DNA of 64,000 nucleotides from Halobaculum sp. XH14 (GTDB lineage: Archaea > Halobacteriota > Halobacteria > Halobacteriales > Haloferacaceae). This document shows positions 12,880 to 47,167 of the stretch, piece after piece. Numbering within the stretch: position 1 is the stretch's first letter; each line of letters starts with the position of its first letter. The notes beneath the pieces are model-generated. The model saw nothing but the letters and a program-made list of their open reading frames with translations. It searched no databases and was not told where the DNA came from. The stretch covers positions 1,178,001 to 1,242,000 of the forward strand of contig NZ_CP134949.1 in the NCBI RefSeq assembly GCF_032116555.1. Direction: 5' to 3'. A program made the position numbers and the translations under genes.

Positions 12880-12990
12880 AAGAATAATACCGGCTCACGG
12901 CATGGACCTAGCGACTGATGACTCCCTGCGAGACGTTCCGTCTTGCGAGCCCTCCGTGGACCCGTCGCGGCCCGGGGGTGGGAGTCCCCC
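12880..12990 (+). promoter_or_regulatory. Promoter and structured leader of the KaiC/RAD55-like gene
   Basis: A TATA-like AAGAATAATACC at about 12882-12893 predicts a start near 12915 and a leader of about 75 bases, long for haloarchaea. The leader contains GCGAGAC-gttcc-GTCTTGC (12928-12946, one G-U pair). A second hairpin, GGGGG-tgggagt-CCCCC (12974-12990), touches ATG 12991 and has the Shine-Dalgarno-like GGGAG in its loop. Confidence 0.45.
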
Positions 12991-13599
12991 ATGTATGAGG
13001 TTTCGACGCTGGGATCCAGCATCGAACCCGGATCGAACGTCCTCTTCACCGGCCCGCCGCTGAGCGGCAAGCGCGAACTGGCCCTCGACGTGCTCGCGGA
13101 AGGGACCGAACGGGGGGAGGGCGCGATCATGGTGACGACGAAGGACAGCGCGGACAGGCTCCTGAAACGGTTCGGCAAGCGCGTGAGCCACGACGGGAAG
13201 CCGGTCGCGGTCGTCGACACGGTGACCCGCCAGCAGGGCGTCGGGGACGTCCGGGACGACGACCGCATCAAGTACACGTCCTCGCCGGTCGACCTCACCG
13301 GGGTCGGCATCAAGCTCTCCGAGTTCCTCGAGAACTTCCACGCGGAGCGTGGCATCGAGCGGAACCGGGTGATGCTCCACTCGCTCTCGACGCTTCTGAT
13401 GTACACCGACCTCCAGACCGTGTTTCGGTTCCTCCACGTGTTCACCGGCCGCATCCAGAGCGTCGACGGCCTCGGCGTCTACTGCATCGACTCGACGGCC
13501 CACGAGGAACGGGAGATGAACACGCTGAAACAGCTGTTCGACGGCATCGTCGAGACGTCCGAGGACGCCGAGCCCGCGGTGCGGATCGCGGACGCCTGA
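12991..13599 (+). CDS. KaiC/RAD55-like RecA-superfamily ATPase (HTR-like protein)
   Basis: 202-residue RecA-fold protein with a P-loop variant FTGPPLSGKRE (about 19-29). A strand ending in HSLSTLLMYTD (about 131-141) occupies the Walker B position. It belongs to the abundant haloarchaeal KaiC/HTR-like family, which lacks a full KaiC tandem; members are often near signalling genes but roles are poorly known. ATG 12991 is used because upstream in-frame codons are low-quality. It probably binds nucleotide; no partner gene is adjacent. Confidence 0.75.
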   Translation: MYEVSTLGSSIEPGSNVLFTGPPLSGKRELALDVLAEGTERGEGAIMVTTKDSADRLLKRFGKRVSHDGKPVAVVDTVTRQQGVGDVRDDDRIKYTSSPVDLTGVGIKLSEFLENFHAERGIERNRVMLHSLSTLLMYTDLQTVFRFLHVFTGRIQSVDGLGVYCIDSTAHEEREMNTLKQLFDGIVETSEDAEPAVRIADA

Positions 13600-43857: not shown

Positions 43858-44026
43858 ACCAGACCGTAGCGCGCTCCCACTGATAAAACGTGCGCCCCGC
43901 GGGTTCGTCGACGGGAATCTCCTGCCCGGTCGCCGACTTTCGAGGTGATTACCGGATACGGTCGCGTACAAGCCGGAAACTGGAGTTCTTTTTACAGCAT
44001 GACTATCAGAATGTTTCAGATAGATT

Positions 44027-44037
44027 CAGTATAAAAC
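44027..44037 (+). promoter_or_regulatory. TATA box of the DUF7503-like microprotein gene
   Basis: CAGTATAAAAC is a strong TATA box centred 25 bases before ATG 44057, predicting a leaderless transcript. The 60 bases around it are AT-rich. Confidence 0.65.
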
Positions 44038-44056: not shown

Positions 44057-44191
44057 ATGCCCGAAAACACTGCGATGGCGGCGTTCCTGGCGGAGCACCC
44101 GAAGCTGATCGGCGCACTGTTCACGATGACGCTGTTGCTGTCACAGGCCGGTGCGGTCGCGGCGAACGGAAGCTCTACTGCTGGTCCGTAA
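44057..44191 (+). CDS. 44-residue hydrophobic microprotein, DUF7503-like
   Basis: 44 residues: a short charged N-terminus (MPENTAMAAFLAEHPKLIG), a hydrophobic helix about 19-36 (ALFTMTLLLSQAGAVAA), and a short polar tail NGSSTAGP. It resembles a small haloarchaea-only family (DUF7503 as I recall it). The AVAA|N context looks like a signal peptidase site, so it could be a membrane peptide or a secreted octapeptide precursor. Its last 17 bases overlap tail-to-tail the CHAT gene. The TATA box upstream supports expression. Confidence 0.7.
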   Translation: MPENTAMAAFLAEHPKLIGALFTMTLLLSQAGAVAANGSSTAGP

Positions 44192-46367
44192 GTTCGGCCA
44201 GCCGTCGGCCCGTTACCTCGTCGCTCCACCGTATCTCGGTCGCGACTTCGATGGGAGACCTGGCCATGGTGAAGGCCCCGTCGAGCTCCGGGACGGGAAT
44301 CGGGACCGGTTCCCCCCGTCCGGAGCCGATGAACCGTTCCTCGTCGTCCCCGAAGTGGCCCATCGACATCGTTCCCAGATCGAACGACGACGTCGGATAG
44401 CACCGTGGCGTGGCCAGCACCCGGTCGCCGTCCGGGTCGTCCTCCAGTTCGATCAGCATCGCCGCCCCCGTCGCACACTGGCACAGCTGGACCCGCGGGT
44501 CCCCGACGATCGTGTACGCGCTCCCCGCGAACGGGCCCCGACCGACGACGTCCAGGGCCGCGTCCAGCGGGAACCCCACGTCGAGCAGCCGTGCCAGGTC
44601 GCGGCCGACGCGCGTGGCCAGCGAGTTCGGGAGCTCGGTCAGCGACACGACGCCGCCGAGCGCGCCCGCCTCGACGAGCGCCATCCCCTGTCGGTAGGAC
44701 GTACAGGCGTTCAACAGGAACGCGTCGACGCCGGTTTCCTCGAGCGCTTCGAGGTCGAGGAAGCCGTCGGGACACTTCACGCCGCGCTCGTCGACGTGGC
44801 CGACGTAGTGGAAGAAGTCGTGGTCCTCGGCCAGCAGGTCGGCCAGCTCCCCGACCGTGAGCTCGCTGTCCTGTCGAACGTCGAACGCGACGTGATCCCG
44901 GAAGCCGTACACCTCGTCGGCCTCCTCCGCCATCCGGTCGTCGTTGCAAACGACGGTGACGTCGATGGTCAGGTCCGCAGAGAGCGTCCGGTCGAGCCGG
45001 CTGCGGTACGATTCGACCGTCGGTTTCGACGCGCGCATCGGGTAGCCCGGACCGACCCACGCGAGCGACGTGCTGTCGGCGGGGCGCGGCGAGACGACGG
45101 CGTTCCCCTCGTCGGTGACGTTCTGTGTCGGCCCCCTGAGCCAGGGGCGCGACTCCGACCTGTCGCCGGCGCTCCGTGTGAACGCCGGCTCCTCGTCGCT
45201 GCGGACGAACTCGTCGAGCGGACCGCTCCCGTTCCCGCCGGGGACCGTCGGCGCCGGCGGCGGTGAGCGGATCGTCGAGAGGTCCGACGCGAGGAACGGG
45301 AGGATCGCGGCGTTCTCCGCGACCGGCTTCACGTCCGTCGTCTGGGGCCAGTCGATCGCCCCCTCGGTCGCCGACGTCGGCACGTCCAGATACGCGGCGG
45401 TTCGGTCCGCGAGGCTCGCGTCGTACCACGTCCGCCACGGCGGGTCCAGGCTCTCCGAGAGCGCCCGGTGGACCTGCAGGTCCACGTCGTAAAGCCCCGC
45501 CTCGCAGGCTCTCGTGGCACAGTCGAGCGTGAAACAGTGCCGAAGGATCGCGCCGAGTTCATGCGCCAGCCCCTCGCGGTCGGCCGGAAGCCGTCGGGTC
45601 GTCCCGCCCGCGGAGAGATACGGGTCGTCGCTCTCGACGATGCTCGCGGCGAGATAGTAGGCGACCGGTGCCGCCGAGAACAGCGGGCCGTACTCGAAGG
45701 GAACGCCGAGCGTCACCCCCGTCCCAGCGCGTTCCACCAGCGACGGGACGTCGAGCGAATCGCCGGTCTCGATCAGCGGCGGGTGGCCACGGAGCGTGGG
45801 GAACGACCGTTCCGGCGAGGTCGTCGCCAGCGCCGAACCGAAGGTGGACAGCGCCGCGGCGACGTCCGCGGGCTCCTCGGTCACGGTGATCGTTCCGGCC
45901 GGGGTCTCGTGGCGCGAGCGCGCGCCGATCCGGACCGCGGCGGGACCGTCGTCGAGGGAGACGGTCGGATAGCGGCCGTCGTAGTCGACGGACGCGGGGC
46001 CCTCGATCGAGAGGTACGCCTTCACGGGTGCGGTCGACAGTTCGAGGACGTGCTTTCCGGCCGGAACGGCGACGGAGCCGTTCGCCGTCAGCGTCTCGAC
46101 CAGCGAGTTGTCCGGGGTCCGGACGTACACGTCCGCCGTACACAGCGGCGTGACGTGCCGTGTCTTCGCCTCCCAGCAGCCGTCGACGGGCGTCGGGAAC
46201 GCGTTCCCGGCATCGACGCGGACCGGACGGTCGTCGTCCCCGTCGAGCCTGAACGGCAGTTTGACCTCCTCGATCCTGTCCGTGATCTCGTATCCGGCCG
46301 CACCGTCGGCCGGGACGATCGAGAGGGCGTCCGTCGGTTCGTCCGCTGTCTCGTTCACGCGACTCAC
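44175..46367 (-). CDS. CHAT domain protein (caspase-like protease)
   Basis: 730 residues from GTG 46367, whose GTGA overlaps the stop of the upstream gene. Residues about 1-190 are beta-rich (CTADVYVRTPD, VPAGKHVLELS), about 200-340 helical, about 380-460 a disordered linker. The CHAT domain occupies about 460-640: FFHYVGHVDERG gives catalytic His524, FLLNACTSYRQG gives Cys555, then GALGGVVSLTELPNSLATRVGRD. The His-Cys spacing (31) is short for the family. CHAT proteases are caspase relatives that cleave partner proteins after activation. A ~90-residue tail follows. Partner: the coupled RecA-like gene. Confidence 0.82.
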   Translation of the reverse strand: MSRVNETADEPTDALSIVPADGAAGYEITDRIEEVKLPFRLDGDDDRPVRVDAGNAFPTPVDGCWEAKTRHVTPLCTADVYVRTPDNSLVETLTANGSVAVPAGKHVLELSTAPVKAYLSIEGPASVDYDGRYPTVSLDDGPAAVRIGARSRHETPAGTITVTEEPADVAAALSTFGSALATTSPERSFPTLRGHPPLIETGDSLDVPSLVERAGTGVTLGVPFEYGPLFSAAPVAYYLAASIVESDDPYLSAGGTTRRLPADREGLAHELGAILRHCFTLDCATRACEAGLYDVDLQVHRALSESLDPPWRTWYDASLADRTAAYLDVPTSATEGAIDWPQTTDVKPVAENAAILPFLASDLSTIRSPPPAPTVPGGNGSGPLDEFVRSDEEPAFTRSAGDRSESRPWLRGPTQNVTDEGNAVVSPRPADSTSLAWVGPGYPMRASKPTVESYRSRLDRTLSADLTIDVTVVCNDDRMAEEADEVYGFRDHVAFDVRQDSELTVGELADLLAEDHDFFHYVGHVDERGVKCPDGFLDLEALEETGVDAFLLNACTSYRQGMALVEAGALGGVVSLTELPNSLATRVGRDLARLLDVGFPLDAALDVVGRGPFAGSAYTIVGDPRVQLCQCATGAAMLIELEDDPDGDRVLATPRCYPTSSFDLGTMSMGHFGDDEERFIGSGRGEPVPIPVPELDGAFTMARSPIEVATEIRWSDEVTGRRLAELTDQQ

Positions 46368-47167
46368 CCGAGCGGATGCCAGCCGGTCGATCCCCACCCG
46401 TCGATGTGCCAGCGCTCGTCGGGGACGACCGCGCGGTCCCGGAGCCTGAGCTCCACGACGACGTCCAGCCGGTCGGCGAGCTGGGTCACGACGGCGTCGA
46501 CGACCGGGTCCGAGCGGACGTCACCCTCACCGTCGGCTGCCGACCGTCGGGGCAGGTGGAACTGCGCCATGCCGTCCCGCTTCCCGACCGCGGACGTGAC
46601 GTCCCGCAGCAGCGCGCCCGCCGCCGCCTCGCCCAGCGCCGCACGGATGCCGTCGACGCGGAACAGGCAGACGCGAAGCCGCATCCCGTCGTCCCGACCG
46701 CGTTCCTCGCTCCCGTTTTCGCCGACCGCGTCGCCGTCCTCCGCGTCGGCCACGGTCGCGATCGCGTCCAGAAACCGCGAGCGAAACGTTCCGTCACCGT
46801 CAGGCGGGACTCCCCGGTCGCCGGCCGGGGACCCGGAGGCGGCGGCCGGGTCGCGGAGGGGGTCGTCCATCCGGACGACCGCAGCGCCGTCCTCGGCCGC
46901 GGTGACCCCGCCGGGGAACCACGCGTCCGGGCGCGGCGCGTCGTGGGTCAGCCCGAGCACCCGCCGGCGCGGGTACGACGGGTCGCCGAAGTACCGCGCG
47001 GCCGCCACCCGATGTGCGTCGGTCGGCACGTCGCCCGTGACCAGCAGGCGACAGCCGTCATCGAGCGCGTCGAGCGCCTCCCCCAGCGAGGGGTCGGCTC
47101 CCGTCGTCCGGCTCCCGGACCCACCGAGCGATTCGACGGGCCCGGCGTCGGCCCGTTGTCCGTTCAT
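46364..47167 (-). CDS. Degenerate RecA/KaiC-like protein, DUF7504-like
   Basis: 267 residues. CRLLVTGDVPTDAHRVAAARYFGD sits where a P-loop would be but lacks GxxxxGK. RRRVLGLTHDA and MRLRVCLFRVDGIRAAL resemble the later strands of RecA/KaiC folds. The middle (about 110-155) is a Gly/Asp-rich linker. It matches the haloarchaeal DUF7504 pattern as I recall it. ATG 47167 is preferred over the frame start 47194. Directly upstream of and translationally coupled to the CHAT protease, so likely its regulator or sensor. Confidence 0.68.
   Translation of the reverse strand: MNGQRADAGPVESLGGSGSRTTGADPSLGEALDALDDGCRLLVTGDVPTDAHRVAAARYFGDPSYPRRRVLGLTHDAPRPDAWFPGGVTAAEDGAAVVRMDDPLRDPAAASGSPAGDRGVPPDGDGTFRSRFLDAIATVADAEDGDAVGENGSEERGRDDGMRLRVCLFRVDGIRAALGEAAAGALLRDVTSAVGKRDGMAQFHLPRRSAADGEGDVRSDPVVDAVVTQLADRLDVVVELRLRDRAVVPDERWHIDGWGSTGWHPLG

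Follow-up and report, generated by a model that had tools for sequence, protein, structure and literature searches.

A predicted haloarchaeal CHAT protease and its convergently encoded microprotein partner ending in Gly-Pro

The genome of Halobaculum sp. XH14 contains a compact three-gene locus within a stretch of 64,000 nucleotides, here called the window (assembly GCF_032116555.1, contig NZ_CP134949.1, positions 1,178,001 to 1,242,000). The locus encodes a predicted CHAT cysteine protease, a DUF7504 protein and, on the opposite strand, a hydrophobic DUF7503 microprotein (Table 1). The GTG start of the CHAT gene overlaps the stop codon of the DUF7504 gene 5' to it in the sequence GTGA at 46364-46367, and its 3' end overlaps that of the facing microprotein gene. 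A sequence-only reading of this DNA had proposed a CHAT protease with the pair His524/Cys555, coupled by GTGA to a RecA/KaiC-like protein without a P-loop and faced by a 44-residue hydrophobic protein overlapping its 3' end. All of these features were recovered, with the catalytic residues exactly as claimed. The same reading called the microprotein gene TATA-driven, which is plausible. TATAAAA lies at 44030-44036 ahead of the gene, and in relatives an AT-rich element resembling TTTCAGATAnATT recurs about 28-40 nucleotides ahead of the microprotein ATG. The near-palindrome TATCAGAATGTTTCAGATA (window 44005-44023) overlaps this promoter and recurs in Halobaculum relatives, and it is a possible operator.

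Table 1. Features of the CHAT locus in the Halobaculum sp. XH14 window
Feature	Position	Strand	Details
AT-rich promoter element 5' of the microprotein gene	44014..44036	+	TTTCAGATAGATTCAGTATAAAA; comparable elements in relatives
DUF7503 microprotein	44057..44191	+	44 residues, MPENTAMAAFLAEHPKLIGALFTMTLLLSQAGAVAANGSSTAGP*; PF24335, E 2.5e-20
Final 13 codons of the microprotein	44150..44188	+	GAVAANGSSTAGP; equivalent of the 13-residue Haloplanus repeat unit
Tail-to-tail overlap of the microprotein and CHAT genes	44175..44191	.	17 nucleotides, including both stop codons
Predicted CHAT cysteine protease (clan CD, caspase fold)	44175..46367	-	730 residues, GTG start
Cys555 codon of CHAT (LLNACTSY), predicted catalytic	44703..44705	-	invariant in alignment A1
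His524 codon of CHAT (HYVGH), predicted catalytic	44796..44798	-	invariant in alignment A1
DUF7504 protein, predicted KaiC/RecA fold without P-loop	46364..47167	-	267 residues plus stop; PF24336, E 2.5e-26

The window CHAT protein has no Pfam match, and 5 of 19 aligned relatives match PF12770 (best E 7.7e-5). Compared by sequence with PDB chains, the CHAT profile returned nothing; a fold search succeeded. The AlphaFold model of all 730 residues matched SAVED-CHAT filaments, separase, Csx29 and caspases with probability 1.00 over about 200 alignment columns. The loci of relatives were surveyed in 100 fetched loci holding 103 CHAT genes, and the His-Cys dyad is intact in all 103, in HxxGH and LN(A/G)C contexts. 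On the modelled caspase-like fold and these dyad contexts, the window protein is classed as a CHAT (clan CD) protease with predicted activity. It contains no convincing transmembrane segment (maximum KD19 1.32) and looks cytosolic.

The association of this protease with the microprotein is strong. Among 145 Halobacteria genomes, CHAT is present in 131 and DUF7503 in 120, and all 14 genomes that lack CHAT also lack DUF7503 (Fisher p 4e-13). A convergent DUF7503 gene was found at 95 of the 103 CHAT genes in the fetched loci. When any convergent open reading frame ending in Gly-Pro was counted, it was present at 140 of 166 3' ends of the CHAT-A subfamily, against 6 of 952 other genes in the same loci. 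The former figure underestimates the true rate because the CHAT-A set includes loci picked for apparent absence of DUF7503. The stop-to-stop offset in these 140 pairs was -4 in 42, 0 in 26 and -17 in 11, the last being the class of the window pair. Overlapping or abutting genes (offset 0 or below) made up 80 of the 140 pairs, and 114 lay within 30 nucleotides. It is unusual for a fixed tail-to-tail arrangement to be conserved over a whole class, and the arrangement implies that the two genes are coupled, whether functionally or through transcripts that share their 3' ends. CHAT and the microprotein form a conserved core unit that is near-obligate and position-locked.

The window microprotein scores 72.2 bits against DUF7503, for which the gathering cut-off is 27. 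Conservation along the family was counted in an alignment of 92 distinct microproteins. The proline of an HP(R/K) motif and a phenylalanine are present in 92/92, the penultimate glycine in 91/91 and the final proline in 89/91; the preceding 8-10 residues are variable. An A-x-A-like motif stands ahead of the tail in 67/68. Partners of the helix form have 41-56 residues and a single hydrophobic segment. This helix is not essential, because it is absent from the repeat-bearing partners of Haloplanus and from the CHAT-B partners of Natrialbaceae described below, in which the Gly-Pro tail is kept. The constant part of the partner is thus the C-terminus ending in Gly-Pro and not the hydrophobic helix. 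The idea that Gly-Pro is merely a product of the overlapping CHAT frame was rejected, as the dipeptide persists in gene pairs that do not overlap. One genome (G012, L211) carries two identical DUF7503 genes in tandem beside a single CHAT gene.

Nine of 12 Haloplanus species carry a partner with neither a hydrophobic segment nor a signal peptide, built instead from a 13-residue unit, for instance MTADGNGSGISGP or YTADGNGGGISGP, that is repeated 2-14 times. The repeat reading frame occupies the same place as the transmembrane form, with the -4 offset and the same N-terminus and promoter region. The transmembrane form is kept in the other 3 species, and its C-terminal 13 residues, as in TVAAGNSGAISGP, line up residue by residue with the repeat YTADGNGGGISGP. 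Between copies within an array, the ratio of non-synonymous to synonymous differences (pN/pS) was 0.04-0.09 in five arrays, the longer ones; three others, in which the units at the edges differ, gave 0.28-0.36. The copies differ mainly at synonymous sites; therefore the peptide is under purifying selection, and mere DNA slippage was rejected as the explanation of the repeat. In the CHAT tree, repeat and transmembrane forms are interleaved (rep4 with a transmembrane form, support 0.97; rep2 with a transmembrane form, support 1.0), and therefore the switch between helix and repeat, or an exchange of partner genes, took place more than once. A search of 391 Halobacteria genomes gave strong matches to such an array only in Haloplanus. 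An Asp directly precedes the Gly in 64 of 66 Haloplanus units. This residue would suit a caspase-like cut; no cut site is proposed, and canonical microprotein tails contain almost no charged residues. In one array (L238), a run of N interrupts the sequence, and the copy number there is a minimum.

Further CHAT genes extend this pattern in part. The XH14 genome contains three, each with a convergent partner ending in Gly-Pro. The third (L220 4227-4928; G000:C1 near 1598939) belongs to a second subfamily, CHAT-B, marked by the motif FFLNACGS. Its partner is of the helix type, ends in HGEGITNTGP at an offset of -4 and did not appear when the genome was searched with the Pfam DUF7503 profile. A convergent partner ending in Gly-Pro was found in 12 of 23 CHAT-B cases. 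These partners are of the helix type in Haloferacaceae-like genomes. Those of Natrialbaceae-like genomes (L277-L283) lack a helix and have the form MGVRHNRLWWVV...RAKRVSTYGGP, with both ends conserved and a pN/pS of about 0.5; both family names were assigned from named relatives. In CHAT-C paralogues (L226, L227, L228, L229), His and Cys are lost and an N-terminal region resembling ERSWPTLRGHPP is kept, so that they are likely pseudo-proteases. CHAT genes with an HFVGHVT active site (L256-L266, L235) also occur, several of them as tandem pairs. A convergent partner was sought for these genes and for part of CHAT-B, and none was detectable.

The DUF7504 protein of the window scores 93.7 bits against PF24336 (gathering cut-off 27). 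Its AlphaFold model (pLDDT 80.5) matches KaiC, FlaH and RecA (Foldseek best E 3e-6, probability 1.00), and the Walker A motif is absent from it and from its CHAT-linked relatives. On sequence and model together, it is classed as a P-loop-less relative of KaiC and RecA, not as an ATPase. The P-loop, as GPPLSGK or GPPMTGK, is retained in 2 of the 10 DUF7504 copies of the XH14 genome. One of these two lies in the window at 12943-13599 on the forward strand and has an apparently intact P-loop (NVLFTGPPLSGKRELA), unlike the CHAT-linked copy. DUF7504 is present in 145 of 145 Halobacteria genomes, often distant from any CHAT gene. It adjoins 56 of the 103 CHAT genes, on the same strand in 54. The three-gene unit of the sequence-only reading thus holds for the near-constant CHAT-microprotein pair, but DUF7504 joins it in only about half of the loci. 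Neither of the two outcomes that would have spoken against that reading, a lack of conserved co-occurrence and loss of the His/Cys pair in most orthologues, was seen.

A conserved fourth gene was sought around the pair and not found; across about 82 loci, every other flanking family occurs in 13 at most. The neighbours are variable and housekeeping-like. A receiver/HalX-like gene lies near the pair in nine loci (L134, L142, L145, L154, L157, L160, L165, L185, L186); in some loci it stands beyond the microprotein together with a second DUF7504 gene. In a sample of 247 genomes of the phylum, no DUF7503 was found outside Halobacteria, and the only relatives of the CHAT family there, distant ones, came from four genomes that belong to a single other family (L216-L219), with neither DUF7503 nor a detectable convergent partner. 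The dyad is kept in L218 and altered in L216, and the His aligns within QFIGH/QVIGH in L217 and L219. A CHAT copy is carried by 25 haloarchaeal plasmids. Viral contigs and phage records contained no relative, and a viral origin is unsupported.

Taken together, these observations fit a pair in which a soluble CHAT protease of haloarchaea recognises, and probably cleaves, the tail of a peptide partner that is dedicated to it and encoded tail-to-tail on the opposite strand. We consider this account fairly probable. The working part of the partner would be its C-terminal 8-13 or so residues ending in Gly-Pro. CHAT would recognise and bind this tail and, once switched on, cut nearby, so that the partner would most likely be a substrate or a docking peptide. 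In most species, one tail would be carried by a short hydrophobic helix, which would serve to anchor or cluster it. In most Haloplanus species, 2-14 tandem tails on a single soluble chain would replace the helix and present several tails together. DUF7504, where present, would probably act as a sensor or gate of CHAT. Physical recognition, cleavage, this gating and the cellular output are inferred, unlike the gene anatomy, the fold, the conserved catalytic pair, the near-obligate pairing, the conservation of the tail and the purifying selection on the repeats.

Several points weigh against this account. The evidence for binding and cleavage is indirect, and canonical tails share no obvious cleavage motif other than Gly-Pro. 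Insertion of the helix with its N-terminus inside, in line with the positive-inside rule, would turn the tail outwards, to the side of the membrane where a cytosolic protease is not. DUF7504 does not adjoin CHAT in about half of the loci. The HFVGH tandem CHAT genes and the CHAT-B genes of several families have no detectable partner, and the CHAT-C paralogues have lost the dyad. The mirror-tree correlation (r 0.41) is confounded by shared ancestry.

The genetics are identical if the microprotein is instead an inhibitor of CHAT, with the Gly-Pro tail acting as an active-site pseudosubstrate, as in securin and separase, and its loss or relocation freeing the protease; the Haloplanus repeats would then be a high-avidity inhibitor. 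The partner is small and nearly always present, and the fold search placed separase among the top matches to the CHAT domain. An inhibitor would nevertheless be expected wherever an active protease is kept, yet at least 20 dyad-bearing CHAT genes have no detectable partner. Because CHAT occurs without the partner and the partner essentially never without CHAT, a substrate or ligand is favoured, and the inhibitor is rather unlikely. The A-x-A-like motif and the variable tail with its fixed end would also suit the precursor of a secreted peptide, in which the helix would serve as a signal peptide and cleavage at A-x-A would free a peptide of variable sequence, some 8-10 residues long and with Gly-Pro at its end. 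The multi-copy Haloplanus units under purifying selection would correspond to a precursor like that of yeast alpha-factor. This explanation was demoted from the leading place, as the Haloplanus repeat forms have neither signal peptide nor hydrophobic segment. The Natrialbaceae CHAT-B partners have neither of these as well, and CHAT itself looks cytosolic; the explanation is now very unlikely.

Loss of the helix also bears on two explanations that make the microprotein membrane-active. In a system resembling a toxin-antitoxin pair, a small toxin of the type I kind would be curbed by CHAT cleavage, by antisense overlap of the 3' mRNA ends, or by both. The protein is short and hydrophobic, the convergent 3' overlap is conserved and the partner never occurs without CHAT. 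The helix is dispensable, though, and many pairs are gapped rather than overlapping. Nearly all members of the class carry the pair, mostly on the chromosome, and it shows no association with mobility or defence beyond some plasmid copies. This explanation is highly improbable. The sequence-only reading had suggested a unit for signalling or for cell death or defence. As a defence or regulated cell-death unit, DUF7504 would sense a trigger and the freed CHAT would cleave the microprotein, which would then permeabilise the membrane. CHAT proteases do serve defence elsewhere, and there are several copies per genome, some of them on plasmids. A PADLOC scan of the three locus proteins gave no match, though, and the lack of viral or phage relatives, the variable housekeeping-like neighbours and the persistence of the pair after loss of the helix all speak against it. 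No gasdermin-fold pore former was found beside the protease, the partner being the short protein with one hydrophobic segment or the soluble repeat. The defence proposal was not supported and can be given little credence.

CHAT is a near-universal and catalytically intact caspase-fold family in Halobacteria, and under the favoured account of a protease that recognises the tail of its partner, this partner names a testable substrate. The tandem repeats of Haloplanus point directly to the recognised peptide, which makes specificity and function testable in haloarchaea. Extracts of Haloferax contain a strong, stress-tied activity that cleaves LEVD, VEID and IETD and is sensitive to zVAD, to which the study that measured it assigned no gene (PMC3615174). 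The DUF7503 and DUF7504 profiles match in the Haloferax volcanii control genome, and CHAT is a candidate for this activity and not more. A wider proposal would be class-wide signalling. Short peptides with Gly-Pro at their end would be freed by CHAT from a precursor of their own, which would hold one copy on a membrane anchor in most haloarchaea and several in Haloplanus (up to 14 units of 13 residues). These peptides would act as intracellular or intercellular signals, and the family would be the source of the caspase-like activity of Haloferax extracts. We regard this proposal as distinctly unlikely.

The literature searched contained no description of the pairing of DUF7503 with CHAT, of the Gly-Pro rule or of the repeat form. 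The earlier claim that the system is undescribed stands to that extent, although the small families were already catalogued: the window proteins are members of the Pfam families DUF7503 (PF24335) and DUF7504 (PF24336), both annotated as of unknown function. DUF7504 shares its fold with the KaiC, FlaH and RecA ATPases, but its CHAT-linked members have no Walker A motif. With type I toxin-antitoxin systems, only the convergent overlap is seen here. Separase and securin offer a caspase-like fold and a protease-binding partner; separase is a large eukaryotic protease, and securin is unrelated to DUF7503. The best structural match of the CHAT catalytic domain is SAVED-CHAT of type III CRISPR (8tl0, E 3e-5). 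This match covers only about 200 columns, no SAVED sensor was seen in the 730-residue protein, and the gene 5' to CHAT encodes a KaiC fold. HetF, a cyanobacterial CHAT protease that cleaves PatU3 (PMC12288457), is one precedent for a CHAT protease with a dedicated substrate; it is comparable in that a protease of this type serves housekeeping or development by cutting a regulator (PMC12288457, PMC8406250). It differs in being bacterial, in its partner and in its domain layout, which includes TPR and transmembrane segments. The other precedent is Csx29-Csx30 (PMC10028731), the Craspase of type III-E CRISPR. The two systems are alike in the nearby gene for a dedicated substrate, and Csx29 structurally matches the CHAT domain. 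Csx30 has 565 residues and its protease is activated by Cas7-11 and target RNA, whereas the partner here is a 44-residue microprotein or a repeat array; no conserved fourth gene was found at the haloarchaeal locus, and no search was aimed at Cas7-11 genome-wide. The haloarchaeal pair is a variation on the theme of a CHAT protease with a dedicated partner, and what is new is its occurrence in Archaea, with a microprotein or a peptide array as the partner.

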